In this document: positions 2-52,456 of the stretch, piece by piece | Position numbering within the stretch: position 1 is the stretch's first letter | How the letters are laid out: every line of letters begins with the position of its first letter | DNA from: Ignavibacteria bacterium | GTDB lineage: Bacteria > Bacteroidota > Ignavibacteria > Tepidaquicellales > OLB5 | NCBI GenBank assembly: GCA_017303675.1 | Contig: JAFLBX010000001.1 | Location: 445,970 to 509,969 of the forward strand | Length of the DNA: 64,000 bases | Direction of reading: 5' to 3' | Notes under the pieces: model-generated | What the model saw: only the letters and a program-made list of their open reading frames with translations | Database searches by the model: none | What the model was told of the DNA's origin: nothing | Program-made: the position numbers and the translations under genes

Positions 2-3000
2 GATTTCGGAAAAGAAACATTACAAACACTTGAACTCCTCGGAAATGATCCCAAAAAGATCATCTCGCAGGAACCAGCTCTTCTAAGCATCATTAATACA
101 TTCAGCAATGAATTTTCTGCCGTATTCAACAGTGATATAACAATAGTGCTTGATGATATCCACGAACTTTCTCAGCAAATCTGGATAAAAAAATTCATTG
201 ATCTGCTGCTTAATGAAACACCTGATAACCTTCGAATAATTATTACAACAAGATTTCTTGCAGAAATTAATATCTCGTCCCTTAAAGCAAAAAGGAAAAT
301 CCTCGAGATCACACAGAATGAACTGGCGCTGAGTCCGGAAGAATTTTCTGAGCTGGCTAAAAAACTGTATAATATAAAATATTCGGCTGAAGATTCTTTA
401 AATCTGGTAAAATATATGGGAGGCTGGGTAACCGGCATTCATTTATTGCTTCAGGTATCCGAACCCGGCAATATTCTTTCATTTGCCGGTAAAAGTGTGC
501 TGCCTGAAAATTTATTTGAATTTTTCGCTGCAGAAGTTTACTCAAAACTTGATGAAACTGTACAGGATTTTCTTTTAAAAACTTCATTAGTTGTTGAATA
601 TGATATCGAATTCTGCAATGAGCTGTTAAATATCAGCAACAGCGGCGAAATAATAGAATTGCTGGCCGGAAGAAATATTTTCATAGAATCAATAAGAAGC
701 TTTGATTCAGATACTCATCACCAGGTTAAATTCACTTATAACAGACTGTTCAGAGACTTTCTTAGGCAAAAAGCAATGGAAATGCCGGAAAATATATTAA
801 CGGATATCTATAATAAAATTGCATTTCTTTATCTCGCAAAAAATCAACCCGGCACTGCATTTGAATATTTTATTCTTGCAAAAGAATATGAAAAGGCCTT
901 TGATCAGTTACAGATATTTTTTAACGATTATTTTAATCAAAGTAACTTTGAAAAACTTTGGCAGTGTATTTCTGCTTTCAAAACTGATTTTACTGATAAC
1001 AATAAATTGCTTTTATATTATAAAGGTATACTGTTAAAGTTTTACAAAGGAGAAATTGACCAGGCATTAAATTGTTTTAATTCAGCTTTGAAGCTGAATG
1101 ATAAAGATCTGAAATTTAAAATATTATGTACACAGGCTAAAGCCGGTATATTATTAACCCTGGGTAAAGGCAGAATAAATGAAGCGATCGAAATATTAAA
1201 CGATATCCTGATAAGCGAACCAAACCGGCTTGAAAATGCAAAAACATATCATTTGCTCGGAAATTCCTATTTCAATATAAATAAACCGGAAGTTTCAGAA
1301 ACATACCTGGAAAAAGCGCTGCAAATCTGCAATGAACATCCTGATGCGGAATTGGAACATGATGTTTACAGTATGCTGGGAAATATTAAAATTACCAATG
1401 GCGATTTTATACAGTCACATCATTATTACGAGCTGGCTCTCAACAAAACAAACGGGCTGTTTAAAAAAATAGTAATACTCGGAAATCTCACAGTATTGTA
1501 TTCACGCTCAGGAAAATTTTCAAAAGCGGCAGAATTTTTACAAAAATCAAAGGAATTATTAAAAAAATTTAAAACTCCCATATTTGAAATAATTGTAAAA
1601 ATGACCGAATATTCACTTTTATTTGAAACAGGAGATTATGCTGCTGGTATAAAACTTGCTGAAGAAATTAAAGAACTTGCGCTACGCTCCAATAACAGTA
1701 ACTTTATTTTTCTGAGTTATCAATTTTTGGGTGAATGCTGTTATTATTCCGGAAATCCCTCCAAATCAATCGAATTTTATAAACTTGCAGGAAGATTTAT
1801 AGATGAATCAAATGAATCAGATGAAATACTGCTCTCACTTTTAATTGTAATTAGTGAAATGCAGCTTAAGTTAAACCCTGAAATTGAAACCAAACTTTTA
1901 AGAGCATATACGTTTTTAGATGCTGTAAATTCAAATTATGATAAAACCATTGCAGGTTACTATCTTGCCAAATATTATTTTAACACCGGGCAACCATTAA
2001 CAGCTTTAAAGTATTTTGTTAAAAGCGTAGAACAGGCATCTATTCATGAATATAGATCTTTTTTACTCAGAGAATACATGTTTCAGGATAGTATTTTTAA
2101 CCTGCCTGAACACGATTCAGAAATTAAATCCATAGTTGAAGCTATACGCTGCAGCATTTCTGATCTTTTTGAATTACCATGGATTTCCGGTAATCATAAA
2201 AATTCTTTAAACGATCTCATTAAAAGAAGCTATGATCTTAAAATGAAGATATTCGGGGGTCTGGAGTTTATTGTAAAAAATGAACCAGTTAAAGAAAGCG
2301 AGTGGAAACGTAAAAAAAGAAAATTAATACTTTGTTACCTTATTTTGAACTCCGGAAAAAATATTAGCAAAGATAAAATTGTAGATCTTTTTTTCGGGGA
2401 GTCCACTGCAGAAAATTCAGATAATTTATTTCACCAGGCAATTTCAAATATCAGGACAGCATTAAAAGCAGCATACTCCGCATCAGAGCCGGCTTCTGAA
2501 AGCGGCACTTTTGCTGATAAACAATTAATTGTATATGAAGGCAAACAATTAAAAATCCCAAAGGGAATATCAGTATATTCTGATGCTTCTGTGTTTGAAA
2601 GGCTGATACAAAATGCATCAGCTTCAGAAAACATTAAAGATAAAATCGTTTTTTATAAAGAAGCTGTTGAACTGTATACAGGTGATGCACTCGAAGGATT
2701 TTATGAGCCCTGGTGTGAAGAAGTAAGGTCTGAATACAGAACAAAATATATAAAATTACTGGAAAATTATAGCAGGCTTCTGTTTGAAGAGGCAATGTAT
2801 GATGATGCCGTAATTTATTCTGAACTGCTTATTAAAAAAGAACCGCTGAATGAGATTGGCTTTGAAATTTTGATCGGTTCTCTGTTTAAATCAGGAAAAA
2901 TAAACCTGGCGAAAGAAAAATTTGAAGAATTAAAACGGAATTATAAGGATGAACTGAATGAAAATATTCCGCCTGAATTAGAAAAAAGAATTCTTTCGAT

Positions 3001-3010
3001 GTATAAATAA
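2..3010 (+). CDS. STAND-type ATPase / TPR / BTAD transcriptional regulator (5' end outside window)
   Basis: The reading frame is open from base 2, so the start lies before the window; 1002 codons are visible. Visible residues about 44-75 carry a hydrophobic strand ending in LDDIHEL and then a strand ending in TTRF, which fits the Walker B and sensor region of MalT-like STAND NTPases; the P-loop would be upstream. Residues about 270-690 are helical TPR-like repeats. Residues about 750-835 look like an OmpR/SARP winged helix (RKKRKLILCYLILNSGKNIS) and residues about 860-1000 like a bacterial transcriptional activator domain (ALEGFYEPWCEEVR). The family usually senses a ligand through the TPR region and then activates transcription. 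The target is unknown. It converges on the OsmC gene with 7 bp between stops. Domain calls are from pattern, not a search. Confidence 0.8.
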   Translation, partial: DFGKETLQTLELLGNDPKKIISQEPALLSIINTFSNEFSAVFNSDITIVLDDIHELSQQIWIKKFIDLLLNETPDNLRIIITTRFLAEINISSLKAKRKILEITQNELALSPEEFSELAKKLYNIKYSAEDSLNLVKYMGGWVTGIHLLLQVSEPGNILSFAGKSVLPENLFEFFAAEVYSKLDETVQDFLLKTSLVVEYDIEFCNELLNISNSGEIIELLAGRNIFIESIRSFDSDTHHQVKFTYNRLFRDFLRQKAMEMPENILTDIYNKIAFLYLAKNQPGTAFEYFILAKEYEKAFDQLQIFFNDYFNQSNFEKLWQCISAFKTDFTDNNKLLLYYKGILLKFYKGEIDQALNCFNSALKLNDKDLKFKILCTQAKAGILLTLGKGRINEAIEILNDILISEPNRLENAKTYHLLGNSYFNINKPEVSETYLEKALQICNEHPDAELEHDVYSMLGNIKITNGDFIQSHHYYELALNKTNGLFKKIVILGNLTVLYSRSGKFSKAAEFLQKSKELLKKFKTPIFEIIVKMTEYSLLFETGDYAAGIKLAEEIKELALRSNNSNFIFLSYQFLGECCYYSGNPSKSIEFYKLAGRFIDESNESDEILLSLLIVISEMQLKLNPEIETKLLRAYTFLDAVNSNYDKTIAGYYLAKYYFNTGQPLTALKYFVKSVEQASIHEYRSFLLREYMFQDSIFNLPEHDSEIKSIVEAIRCSISDLFELPWISGNHKNSLNDLIKRSYDLKMKIFGGLEFIVKNEPVKESEWKRKKRKLILCYLILNSGKNISKDKIVDLFFGESTAENSDNLFHQAISNIRTALKAAYSASEPASESGTFADKQLIVYEGKQLKIPKGISVYSDASVFERLIQNASASENIKDKIVFYKEAVELYTGDALEGFYEPWCEEVRSEYRTKYIKLLENYSRLLFEEAMYDDAVIYSELLIKKEPLNEIGFEILIGSLFKSGKINLAKEKFEELKRNYKDELNENIPPELEKRILSMYK

Positions 3011-4956: not shown

Positions 4957-5266
4957 AGCTTGTCACAATTGGACCCTAATTATTCGTTTTAACGCTGTTT
5001 TCTTCATTTTTATAGCTTATGATAGTCACAATTTAGCTTATTATTCTTTGAATTACTATGCCACAATAGCTTAAGTTTGTTATAATTTTATGAACATTGC
5101 ATATAAAATTTGTCACAACGGATGTAAAAATATAAATACAGTTTGCCTTAAACATCTTTTGTAAAAAGATGTTTTGTCACAAACACGAAATTTATTCCGG
5201 GAACAGACAAATCATAAACATGTTAAATGAATACAATAAAAATTTATAATATAACTTAATACTAAT
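4957..5266. promoter_or_regulatory. Divergent intergenic region with repeated TTGTCACAA boxes
   Basis: This 310-bp gene-free stretch holds three perfect copies of the odd palindrome TTGTCACAA (4960-4968, 5110-5118, 5174-5182), all read on the + strand. Variants are TAGTCACAA (5023-5031), ATGCCACAA (5058-5066) and TTGTTATAA (5077-5085). A 10-bp perfect hairpin lies at 5150-5174 (arm AAACATCTTT). Repeated boxes between divergent genes suggest binding sites for a dimeric regulator controlling both genes. The core contains TCACA, the half-site of CRP/FNR-type regulators, but the usual spaced full site is absent. Confidence 0.5.
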
Positions 5267-46985: not shown

Positions 46986-48446
46986 TTATATCGAGCCTTC
47001 AAGCTTTTCGATCAACCATGACCTGAAATTCACATCGTTATCCTTTTTTAGCTCAATTAATATTTCACCTGGATCCATTTTTGATCTTCCCGTTTTCAGA
47101 TCAATTAAATTTTTGCAGTATTTCAGGAAGCTCTCTGTAATATTCCTGTAATATTCAGATACCCCTTTATTTTTACTTATAAAATGTTTGTATGAATCAA
47201 GAAGCGATATAGCCTCTTCTATGTAGCCAAGTTCGATGTATATCCTCATCATCAGGTTCCTTATATCGAACTTCAAAGTAAATACATCAAAATCTATCCT
47301 GTTTAATATTGAAAGCGATTCTTCGAATTTTTGTTTTTCAAACAGCAAGTGTGCATCGGCAAATAATTTAAGATTATTCCTGATCATTTCGGGAAGATAT
47401 TTAGAGTAATTTTCCGCGAACTGCTCTGCCCAAACACTTTCATTCAGCTGCAGAGCGGTCATAAGTATTTGCCTGAACAGCATAAATCTCATTGTTCTGC
47501 CATCAGGAAGGAAAACCCCTGCTTCAAGCCTCATTTTATTTATTTCGAACAATTCTCTTCGGTATCTTTCTCTGTCAACAACAACCATTTTCTGCCAGCA
47601 TATCGCTTCAGCCATTTGGTATATATTATATTTTTCATACTCCTGAAAATAATTTATTGCTTCAGGTAATATATTTTTCAGTTCTTCAAAATATGATTCA
47701 TCTTTTTCATAATAATTATTTAAAATGAACAGAACATATACCCTCATTGCCTTCTTTGTGTTATCTGATAATTTATCAAGTGCAATAAGCTTATCGATCT
47801 TTGAAAGGTCAACAGAAGTTATAAAATCATTGATAAATTTACTCTCTGAAATATTAAATATAACTTTATTGACACGAACATTATGCATATAATATGAAAG
47901 CCGCAAAATAAAATGGTATATAAGATATTCTACCTCATTGATGAAATTCGGTGAAATTTCTGACTGCTTGTTTGTGCTTAGCTTTATCTGTACAAGCCTG
48001 TCCTCATAGTCAAGACGGTTTTGAACGTATTCGTTGCTCATCGGGCCATCTGTACCGATTCTTTTTATAATTTGATCAAGCTCTTTTTCTGCTTCTTTAA
48101 GAAGCCCCCTGCGGCTGTATTCAAACGATTTTAAATACCTGGCTTCAACAGGGTTTGAATCCAAAACTTTATTATAAATATATGTATCCAGAAGTTTCTT
48201 CAGATCAGAAGTCAGCCTTCGAATTACTTCATCACTATACTGCTTATCCGGGTAAAGATTTTCAAAAATGGCTTTGCGGTCTACAGATCTTTCCGGGAAT
48301 TCGGGGTAATATTTCTTTAATTCCTCATAAAATCTTGTTAGGCTGGGCTGGTTATTAAAAAATGGCGAAATAATGAATTTATCAAATTCCTTAATTTCAC
48401 TAACTGAAAGACTTCTTAAAATTGTAATTACTGAAGTTTTTATCAT
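46986..48446 (-). CDS. Helical-repeat protein, paralogue B of a three-member family
   Basis: 486 residues from the ATG at 48446; a TTG five codons upstream is less likely. No signal peptide. N-terminus ILRSLSVSEIKEFDKFIISP then FFNNQPSL and KKYYPEF, the best match to the family pattern seen also at 3541 and 50996. The C-terminal half shares WAEQFAENYSKYLPE, FEESLSILNRIDFDVFTLKF and EEAISLLDSYKHFISKNKG. Helical throughout; function unknown. It is divergent from a small secreted protein (48596) and an M1 peptidase (49115) with a 149-bp intergenic region. Confidence 0.75.
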   Translation of the reverse strand: MIKTSVITILRSLSVSEIKEFDKFIISPFFNNQPSLTRFYEELKKYYPEFPERSVDRKAIFENLYPDKQYSDEVIRRLTSDLKKLLDTYIYNKVLDSNPVEARYLKSFEYSRRGLLKEAEKELDQIIKRIGTDGPMSNEYVQNRLDYEDRLVQIKLSTNKQSEISPNFINEVEYLIYHFILRLSYYMHNVRVNKVIFNISESKFINDFITSVDLSKIDKLIALDKLSDNTKKAMRVYVLFILNNYYEKDESYFEELKNILPEAINYFQEYEKYNIYQMAEAICWQKMVVVDRERYRRELFEINKMRLEAGVFLPDGRTMRFMLFRQILMTALQLNESVWAEQFAENYSKYLPEMIRNNLKLFADAHLLFEKQKFEESLSILNRIDFDVFTLKFDIRNLMMRIYIELGYIEEAISLLDSYKHFISKNKGVSEYYRNITESFLKYCKNLIDLKTGRSKMDPGEILIELKKDNDVNFRSWLIEKLEGSI

Positions 48447-48531
48447 AAATAACTCACACAAAAATGCGAATTAAGTATATTAACTGCAAATAAATAAATA
48501 TTTCTTATTAAACTTAACTCACATTTTTCAA

Positions 48532-50995: not shown

Positions 50996-52456
50996 TTAAA
51001 TTCCTTTTCTTTGCATTAATTCATCTGTTTTTTCCATCAGCCATTTCCTGTGATTAATCATTTCACAGGCGGCAATATCTTCCTTCAGGCTTTGCAGGTT
51101 AACTTTATAGCTATACCTTGCTTTGCATAATTTACTGCTGTATTTTATAAAATTACCGCATATTTTACGGTTACCTTTGCTTAACAGCTTATCGTTCTGA
51201 ATATATTTTCTGAAATTTTCCAGCTCATTGAAAACTTCTTCAATATTTCCCAATTCATAATCTATTGTAATTCTTGCTATCCTTGCATTCACCTTCATAT
51301 GAACGTCGGTATAGGTAACCTTTGATATATATTCTTTTGCGGTCTTATAATCACCGGTCTTTTCGTAAATTTTGCAGTAGCAGTAATTCCTTTCATTTTC
51401 CCTGATATCAGGAGGCAGTTTTCTGTAGTTTGATTCTATAAATTCTTCTACCCACCTGATCTCATTCTGACCTAGAGCAATTATAACAATATTTGTGAAA
51501 ACTTCTTTATCAAAATACCCGCCCTGAACCCTGTTATATAGATTTTTCTCAACTATATACTTGTTCATTTCAAACATCATTTTATAGAACTCTTTTTTTC
51601 CGCTGTAAACTTTTTCTATGCATATGTTCGCAAGTATGGTTAAGCCGTCTCTCCTGTCGAATTTTTCTATAGGAGTTGCATCATTACAGAGCTCTTTTTT
51701 GATCTCATACATCAATTCTTCATTTGAAGGATCAAGCAGAAGCTTTATCTGCCTGTAAAGTAATGAAAGAACTTTGTTCTGCAAGTATGATCTTCCTTCG
51801 TTTTCAAGAAACCCGAGAATGTAAGGAAGAAAATCCAGTTCAAAATCTGTATCAACAGTAAATGATTTGTTTAAAAGGTAACGGTATCTTTGAAGGACCA
51901 TTATAAGATAAAAATATGTAAGGTTATTAGATTCCGCAAGCAGAGACTTATCCGGTTTATCTTTTACCGTAGTAGCAATATAATTTCGTGAGTAAATTAT
52001 ATCTTTAAGTTTTTCAAGCTCAAATTTCCTTTCGTAATATCTTGCTTCAAATACCCTGGTGTTTTTTAACTGCTTTTCTGTTTGCGTGATAATCTTTTGT
52101 GCACTTTTGTCAAGACCAAGCTCCAGCAGGCTTTGTGTTACATATAATTCCCTGTCGGTTGGTATTTTTGTCATTTCAGTATATGCAAGGTAACTTTCGG
52201 TTAGCTCAGTCAGCTTGAATATTATCATACGCATAAAGCTGTCATTGTATTCAGCCGGGGAAAACAATTTATGATAAATATACTCTTTCCTGGTTTTTTC
52301 CGGGTTAAATTCAGGATGTACCAGCCTTAGATATTCAAACAGTTTTTCCGCACTTTCGTTTTTATTAAAAAAAGGAGACTTAATAAAATCACTAAGCTCT
52401 TTCATTTGCCTGGATGAGAGTTTGGAAAGTATTTCAACAAGATAAGTTTTCTGCAT
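50996..52456 (-). CDS. Helical-repeat protein, paralogue C of a three-member family
   Basis: 486 residues, no signal peptide. N-terminus ILSKLSSRQMKELSDFIKSP then FFNKNESA and HPEF, and C-terminal WVEEFIESNYRKLPPD, YKTAKEYISKVTYTDVHMKV and FNELENFRKYIQ match paralogues A and B. The end (NHRKWLMEKTDEL) matches the end of B (NFRSWLIEKLEGS), so B and C are the closer pair. Predicted as helical hairpins. Divergent from an FnIII-domain gene and a T9SS gene across 314 bp. Function unknown. Confidence 0.75.
   Translation of the reverse strand: MQKTYLVEILSKLSSRQMKELSDFIKSPFFNKNESAEKLFEYLRLVHPEFNPEKTRKEYIYHKLFSPAEYNDSFMRMIIFKLTELTESYLAYTEMTKIPTDRELYVTQSLLELGLDKSAQKIITQTEKQLKNTRVFEARYYERKFELEKLKDIIYSRNYIATTVKDKPDKSLLAESNNLTYFYLIMVLQRYRYLLNKSFTVDTDFELDFLPYILGFLENEGRSYLQNKVLSLLYRQIKLLLDPSNEELMYEIKKELCNDATPIEKFDRRDGLTILANICIEKVYSGKKEFYKMMFEMNKYIVEKNLYNRVQGGYFDKEVFTNIVIIALGQNEIRWVEEFIESNYRKLPPDIRENERNYCYCKIYEKTGDYKTAKEYISKVTYTDVHMKVNARIARITIDYELGNIEEVFNELENFRKYIQNDKLLSKGNRKICGNFIKYSSKLCKARYSYKVNLQSLKEDIAACEMINHRKWLMEKTDELMQRKGI

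Follow-up and report, generated by a model that had tools for sequence, protein, structure and literature searches.

Four copies of the heptamer TTGTGAC, all in one orientation, occupy the 310 bp intergenic region between gene A and its divergent neighbour, which encodes a protein carrying a T9SS sorting tail, and all four are retained in the orthologous regions of two congeners. The sequence evidence that these boxes are operators is strong. Gene A belongs to a large family of paralogs, and we place slightly more belief than doubt in the reading that each paralog is a dedicated transcription factor, which binds its own word and controls itself and the gene facing it. The window mentioned below is the whole stretch of DNA analysed (64,000 nucleotides); the coordinates of its features are listed in Table 1.

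Table 1. Features of the gene A locus and of two further family members in the window.
Feature	Position	Strand	Remarks
Gene A (paralogue A), 471 aa	3541..4956	-	Proposed box binder; predicted HTH-like domain at the N-terminus (1-99), TPR-like helices in the C-terminal part
Box 1, TTGTGAC	4962..4968	-	5 bp before gene A ATG; kept in G012 and G002
Box 2, TTGTGAC	5025..5031	-	63 bp upstream of box 1; TTGTGACT in all three species
Putative -33 TTTG of divergent T9SS-gene promoter	5047..5050	+	Inside conserved TTCTTTG (5044-5050); TCAAAGAATAAT on the other strand
Putative -7 element TAAGTTTG of T9SS-gene promoter	5072..5079	+	Conserved ACAAAnTTAA on the other strand
Box 3, TTGTGAC	5112..5118	-	In likely T9SS-gene leader; kept in G012 and G002
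Box 4, TTGTGAC	5176..5182	-	64 bp from box 3; kept in G012 and G002
Palindrome TTCCGGGAA	5195..5203	.	Conserved in all three species; possible further site
YCF48-like protein with T9SS sorting tail, 422 aa	5267..6535	+	Divergent target candidate; profile matches
Second family member	46986..48446	-	ATG at 48446
Lower box TGTGAGTTA of second family member	48450..48458	-	No ortholog for comparison
Upper box TGTGAGTTA of second family member	48515..48523	-	65 bp upstream of lower box; no ortholog for comparison
Third family member	50996..52456	-	No exact box pair of at least 8 nt found

Three exact copies of TTGTCACAA start at positions 4960, 5110, and 5174, and a fourth box, the variant TAGTCACAA, starts at 5023. 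The cluster reported in the first-pass annotation is thereby confirmed, together with its distances of 3 bp from the end of the first box to the start codon of gene A and of 84 bp from the last one to the T9SS start. Among the variants claimed there, the one at 5023 proved to be conserved and TGCCACAA, near 5060, did not. The 3.65-Mb genome (3,651,746 bases, two contigs) contains 19 exact copies of TTGTCACAA on both strands, from which about 0.002 copies are expected in the 310 bp against three observed, in line with the earlier estimate of well under one. The remaining 16 copies are located more than 20 kb from the gene A cluster and from one another, and the word forms no cluster elsewhere. 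With one mismatch tolerated, the whole window has 25 matches versus 22.7 expected, which is no excess, so the unusual part is the local clustering of the boxes. Chance or composition could account for such a cluster if a repeated word of AT-rich intergenic DNA had been singled out afterwards. The word TTGTCACAA was indeed a post hoc choice, and 2 of 100 dinucleotide shuffles of a 320-bp upstream stretch also contained a 9-mer three times, which is the point in favour of this explanation. Given the post hoc choice, the shuffle result, and the lack of a one-mismatch excess, the single sequence is only moderately unusual, and conservation decides.

Among 38 relatives searched, clear orthologs of gene A were detected in two congeners, G012 (78% identity) and G002 (72% identity; contig DDTQ01000011.1 of Ignavibacteria bacterium UBA2360), and other homologs among the matches listed had at most 35% identity. 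The genes around gene A follow the same order in all three (nitrite reductase, T9SS gene, gene A, and OsmC-like gene). In the alignment of the three intergenic regions, which are otherwise diverged, the four boxes are invariant and in one orientation; the other invariant blocks are GTTCCCGGAATAAA and TCAAAGAATAAT. The box-to-box spacings are 64/87/63 bp in the window, 64/85/63 bp in G012, and 63/94/63 bp in G002; thus, the pair spacing is kept and the middle gap is variable. The conservation refutes the chance explanation as it stands, and with the excess of repeats being confined to family genes and direct repeats and with the spacings being phased (see below), we give it practically no credence. 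Recombination or phase-variation repeats, which would delete or rearrange a promoter segment, might be suspected from the short direct repeats flanking a stretch that possibly holds the family-gene promoter. However, the copies and their spacing are preserved between species, the segment is present in all three orthologous regions, and 7-15 bp is short for homologous recombination; this explanation is very improbable.

The core had initially been described as a near palindrome with the TCACA half-site of CRP/FNR regulators. Its TTGTGAC part is the conserved unit, a directional 7-mer on the strand of gene A (minus) forming two pairs spaced 63-64 bp, and the ACAA completing the palindrome is found in only 6 of the 12 boxes (four boxes in each of three species). 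No facing TCACA half-site was detected within 25 bp of any of the 12. The CRP/FNR operator, with inverted TGTGA/TCACA at a fixed short spacing, was rejected on these two counts. The proposal that the boxes could serve both divergent genes is supported by their conservation in both orthologous intergenic regions, so the earlier interpretation is partly supported. A TTGTGAC regulon elsewhere was rejected as well: in a search of 39 genomes for pairs separated by 42-72 nt, the listed matches outside the three gene A loci were single pairs or tandem arrays, and a reversed-pattern control gave similar numbers. Directly before box 4 in the T9SS leader lies an inverted repeat (window positions 5150-5174) with perfect 11-bp arms and a 3-nt loop; it is not kept in the two congeners.

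The -33 and -7 elements of the putative T9SS-gene promoter were assigned by the Bacteroidota promoter consensus. Relative to them, boxes 1 and 2 flank the gene A start region, with box 2 being upstream of the putative T9SS -33, and boxes 3 and 4 are within the putative T9SS-gene leader. A search for the family genes' own promoter yielded neither a consensus nor a position. The hexamer CAAAGA occurs in 101 of 239 family upstreams versus 15 for its reverse complement, and in 32 of 52 pairs AAAGA precedes the upper box by 12-24 bp. The preferred explanation is that the CAAAGA element would be the divergent promoter's -33 TTTG, although its presence in 16 of 65 upstreams called co-directional (by a crude calling) cuts against this reading.

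The gene A protein (P0001) had no match above the cut-off in Pfam and NCBIfam. Its search against its own genome (G000) returned 50 matches, some of them pieces of one gene, and about 48 genes were counted; the matches in other genomes numbered 46 (G002), 38 (G012), 56 (G010), 43 (G028), and 46 (G017). A profile of the N-domain, searched against 117 other genomes of the phylum, had matches in six, five of which were single and one of these marginal. A single in-frame stop was observed inside four family members (G012:C7:197145, G002:C1:631608, G002:C13:653636, and G034:C41:170158), which may be decaying paralogs or assembly errors. The end of a contig filed under Planctomycetota (L113, JAFLCM010000361.1) carries a 97% identical gene A piece of 35 residues and is perhaps misbinned.

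The first-pass annotation had raised the possibility of the same boxes before other family members. This was not borne out: TTGTGAC is present in 3 of 59 upstreams examined, which are those of gene A and of its orthologs in the two congeners; the 56 others lack it. Other paralogs have their own word in the same layout, with one copy just before the ATG and the other 6-9 helical turns upstream. The comparison drew on 48 G000 members, 44 G002 members, and 37 G012 members, which were assembled into 31 ortholog groups; one further G012 locus without a usable frame was left out. Upstream alignments of several three-member groups revealed the words ATCGCAAA, TTTTAGA, ATTGTAACC, and AGTTGCTTAT, each present twice with one copy 12-34 bp before the ATG; those of the other three-member groups had no such word pair. 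A conserved direct repeat of at least 7 nt was found in 9 of the 31 groups, 8 of them with a permutation p of ≤0.02 and the ninth with nearly identical upstreams, and inverted repeats were found in 2 of 31, one of these controls being long and conserved (12 nt, one group).

Repeats of at least 9 nt, one copy of which had to start no more than 45 bp from the ATG, were direct in 37 of 129 upstreams and inverted in 5 of 129, with a shuffled mean of 4.8. In the extended set, 60 of 239 family upstreams had direct repeats of this length versus 10 with inverted ones, and the non-family control of 349 genes contained 20 direct and 16 inverted cases. The scan demands one copy near the family ATG and therefore cannot by itself decide whether the boxes belong to the family gene or to the gene next to it. 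An exact pair of at least 8 nt at phased spacings was present in 18 of the 48 members in their own genome, most members being without one, and such repeats were absent from all five readable of seven homologs elsewhere in the phylum. In G030, repeated AACTGCCTA/AGGCAGTTA words are clustered downstream of the family gene L057.

The spacings of the pairs follow the helical repeat. In the discovery genomes, 35 of 37 exact pairs at 60-100 bp fall at 63-66, 74-77, 86-88, or 96-97 bp (32% expected), windows that were drawn from the discovery-genome data themselves. For 41 pairs, with relatives collapsed at 45% identity, the best period was 11.0 bp (R 0.61), and none of 2000 uniform random sets was as strong. 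In a hold-out of 82 genes, from which 28 close relatives of the discovery set were excluded, 10 of 15 exact pairs were in phase (p 0.006). Relaxed settings and subsets gave p values of 0.006-0.12, and inverted pairs in the hold-out were also often in phase (3/5 and 6/9), so its support for the phasing is moderate. Spacing by helical turns is a property of DNA and argues against repeats acting in RNA, where paired or protein-bound leader elements would govern the translation of the family gene. The lower copy does adjoin the start codon, and TTGTGAC/GTCACAA is near-palindromic, so its copies can pair. Against this, the words of other paralogs (e.g., ATCGCAAA and AGTTGCTTAT) are non-palindromic, no Rfam match was found, and a compensatory change was seen in none of 26 predicted pairs (three sequences only). 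Action at the RNA level is unlikely, and we assign it a small probability.

Structural models were built with AlphaFold2 from four sequences (three from the window and one ortholog). The gene A model had a mean pLDDT of 70, with residues 91-219 being unreliable; residues 1-99 alone reached 84. When this N-domain was aligned by VIA with 392 chains, the top eight rows were all DNA-binding domains with Z of 4.5-5.5, a range that may reflect only a common arrangement. They included CovR (Z 5.5), ArlR (Z 5.0, rmsd 1.9 over 58), sigma-E region 4, PhoP, CadC, and ToxR; row nine was an AlpA transcription complex chain (4.3), and the remainder had ≤3.7. The modelled helical core may thus be like that of the OmpR/PhoB/ToxR group, but the gene A protein is without a receiver domain, and the beta-hairpin wing is absent from the model, the N-domain of which has no strands (four-sequence alignment). 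Foldseek by itself gave no significant match for the N-domain (best E 2.1). The N-domain weakly resembles OmpR/ToxR DNA-binding domains in these models; with the eight top rows on one side and the non-significant Foldseek result and missing wing on the other, it is likely an HTH of some kind. Sequence searches with the N-domain found no DNA-binding family, no link to Trans_reg_C/BTAD, and no solved structure, and 6 of 51 family members matched FAD_SOX with this domain (best E 0.00036).

Box similarity was compared with protein identity in 34 nonredundant members having a phased pair. Identity in predicted helix 3 (69-88) correlated with box similarity at r 0.18, a value reached in 6 of 2000 permutations, and segment 52-88 in 63 of 2000; segments 1-30, 31-50, and 52-68 and the TPR part showed no correlation. 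Among equal-sized windows, residues 149-185 gave 32 of 2000, and residues 75-111, which overlap helix 3, gave nothing (466 of 2000). As many segments were tried, the correlation is a weak hint and not a proof. It nevertheless runs against the view that the boxes are operators of other factors encoded elsewhere (e.g., small ribbon-helix-helix (RHH) or CRP/FNR-type), one for each gene pair, with the family proteins being sensors or effectors and not DNA binders. RHH proteins bind short repeated words, and small RHH-like ORFs, recognized by eye, are divergent to three paralogs beside repeated TGTGCACA-type words; the weak fold match of the N-domain also suits such factors. However, dozens of words would demand dozens of separate regulators, the CRP/FNR half-sites are missing, and between gene A and the T9SS gene no such ORF of at least 80 aa was found in any of the three species (20-kb stretches). 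Binding by other factors is therefore rather doubtful, though the most substantial of the alternatives. We infer that the family protein is the binder because the words are private and constantly linked to a family gene, because its N-domain looks like an HTH, and because helix 3 gives a weak signal.

The product of the gene facing gene A (P0002) matched the C-terminal sorting domains TIGR04183 and PF18962, both above the cut-off. About 4 kb upstream was read for 40 of the 48 G000 members, leaving out gene A, the two other window members, the tandem followers L021, L024, L045, and L156, and L153. The neighbour was defined as the nearest ORF of at least 110 aa, and the T9SS-tail motif as the text pattern NPFNP or YPNPF/Y. 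A divergent neighbour was present in 38 of the 40 paralogs, and 21 of the 40 neighbours had the motif, all 21 being divergent. With gene A, the two window members, and the four tandem followers added, 41 of 47 were divergent and 22 of 47 had the motif: gene A and the two window members are all divergent, the motif is in the neighbour of gene A, and the four followers are co-directional by coordinates. Control genes outside the family were divergent in 20 of 99 cases and divergent with the motif in 1 of 99; their sources were the window and three stretches of 20 kb, of which two belong to the congeners, and two non-family genes had been lost from the 99 to a crude filter. The motif was present in 9 of 116 ORFs, and at least 150 T9SS-tail matches were found in the genome (150 of 338 candidates scored). 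Several other facing genes start, by eye, like those of exported proteins or lipoproteins. About half of the family genes face a gene for a secreted protein.

L025 was counted as co-directional under the 110-aa rule, yet a 71-aa divergent signal-peptide-like ORF is located there. This ORF (L301:3540-3755, minus strand), beside L025 with its conserved AGTTGCTTAT pair, may be a small exported partner or a peptide gene. The RHH-like ORFs (52, 69, and 55 aa) are divergent to L026, L043, and L044 (G000:C1 near 1216116, 827885, and 566350), and likewise escape the 110-aa rule; with the TGTGCACA-type words repeated between them and these paralogs, they possibly represent another kind of operator together with its partner.

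In the preferred reading of dedicated transcription factors, the gene A product, with its predicted HTH-like domain and TPR-like sensor part, would bind its own boxes, as each family member would read a short word private to it. With a copy beside the start codon and another 6-9 turns upstream, both on one face of the helix, cooperative binding or DNA looping could occur, the latter being conjectural, and the protein would in this way control both its own gene and the facing one, by repression or activation. The facing gene would often encode a T9SS-sorted or otherwise exported protein, and at the gene A locus the second box pair would act in the putative T9SS leader. A wider proposal, which we advance tentatively and believe slightly less than we doubt, is that this lineage-expanded, undescribed family provides about 50 one-gene switches per genome, each with a private word for its recognition helix, phased at 6-9 turns and paired with a divergent exported protein, and that these mutually insulated regulators choose which surface proteins are displayed by an Ignavibacteria cell. 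As far as the excerpts of openly licensed PMC text extend, they include no paper on the gene A family. If correct, the proposal would assign a role, and a DNA code open to testing, to a large family without a Pfam or NCBIfam match above the cut-off, would suggest one-by-one control of some of the at least 150 T9SS-tail proteins of one bacterium, and would make one genome a source of many regulator/operator pairs that have diverged naturally, with which the insulation of paralogous transcription factors could be studied.

Known systems share some of these traits. AraC-type regulators form a divergent regulator/target loop with spaced sites on one helix face. The gene A family is alike in having the regulator divergent to its target, same-face spaced sites, and proposed autoregulation; it differs in its protein fold and in words private to each paralog. 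RRNPP proteins (Rap, NprR, and AimR) combine an HTH with TPRs. The TPR part of gene A in VIA-align 2 matched Rap and NprR best and AimR lower (Z 12-16, rmsd about 7, with 91-219 of low confidence), and the unrelated TPR proteins LGN and CNOT10 scored close behind (Z 13-15), so this likeness may be generic. The resemblance appears to be structural only; no XRE-type HTH was identified in the gene A protein, and RRNPP receptors are described for Gram-positives.

SARP regulators have an HTH followed by a helical part, as predicted for gene A. Both kinds of proteins are associated with directly repeated heptamers: the Streptomyces SARPs DnrI, ActII-ORF4, and AfsR are reported to bind such heptamers, classically in 11-bp units, with spacers of 4-15 nt and overlapping the target -35 (PMC10972967). 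In contrast, the copies of the gene A family start 63-97 bp apart, and about 48 genes with private words are present in one genome. Trans_reg_C and BTAD had no match in P0001 and were not among the 25 families listed, of 51 in all, for 51 N-domains, and hhalign against the window's own BTAD protein gave a probability of 0.3 (single-sequence template). By sequence and spacer length, the family is distinct from SARPs, though it may work like a SARP or an AraC-type divergent switch. A nearby SARP/MalT-like regulator (146-3010) was rejected as the binder, since the 20-kb stretches compared from G012 and G002 contain no equivalent gene. This MalT/AfsR-like regulator (plus strand; 1093 aa from an upstream start, the frame being open 271 bp to the left of the window) has TPR, Trans_reg_C (below the cut-off), and BTAD matches, and is one of the two BTAD matches in the genome.
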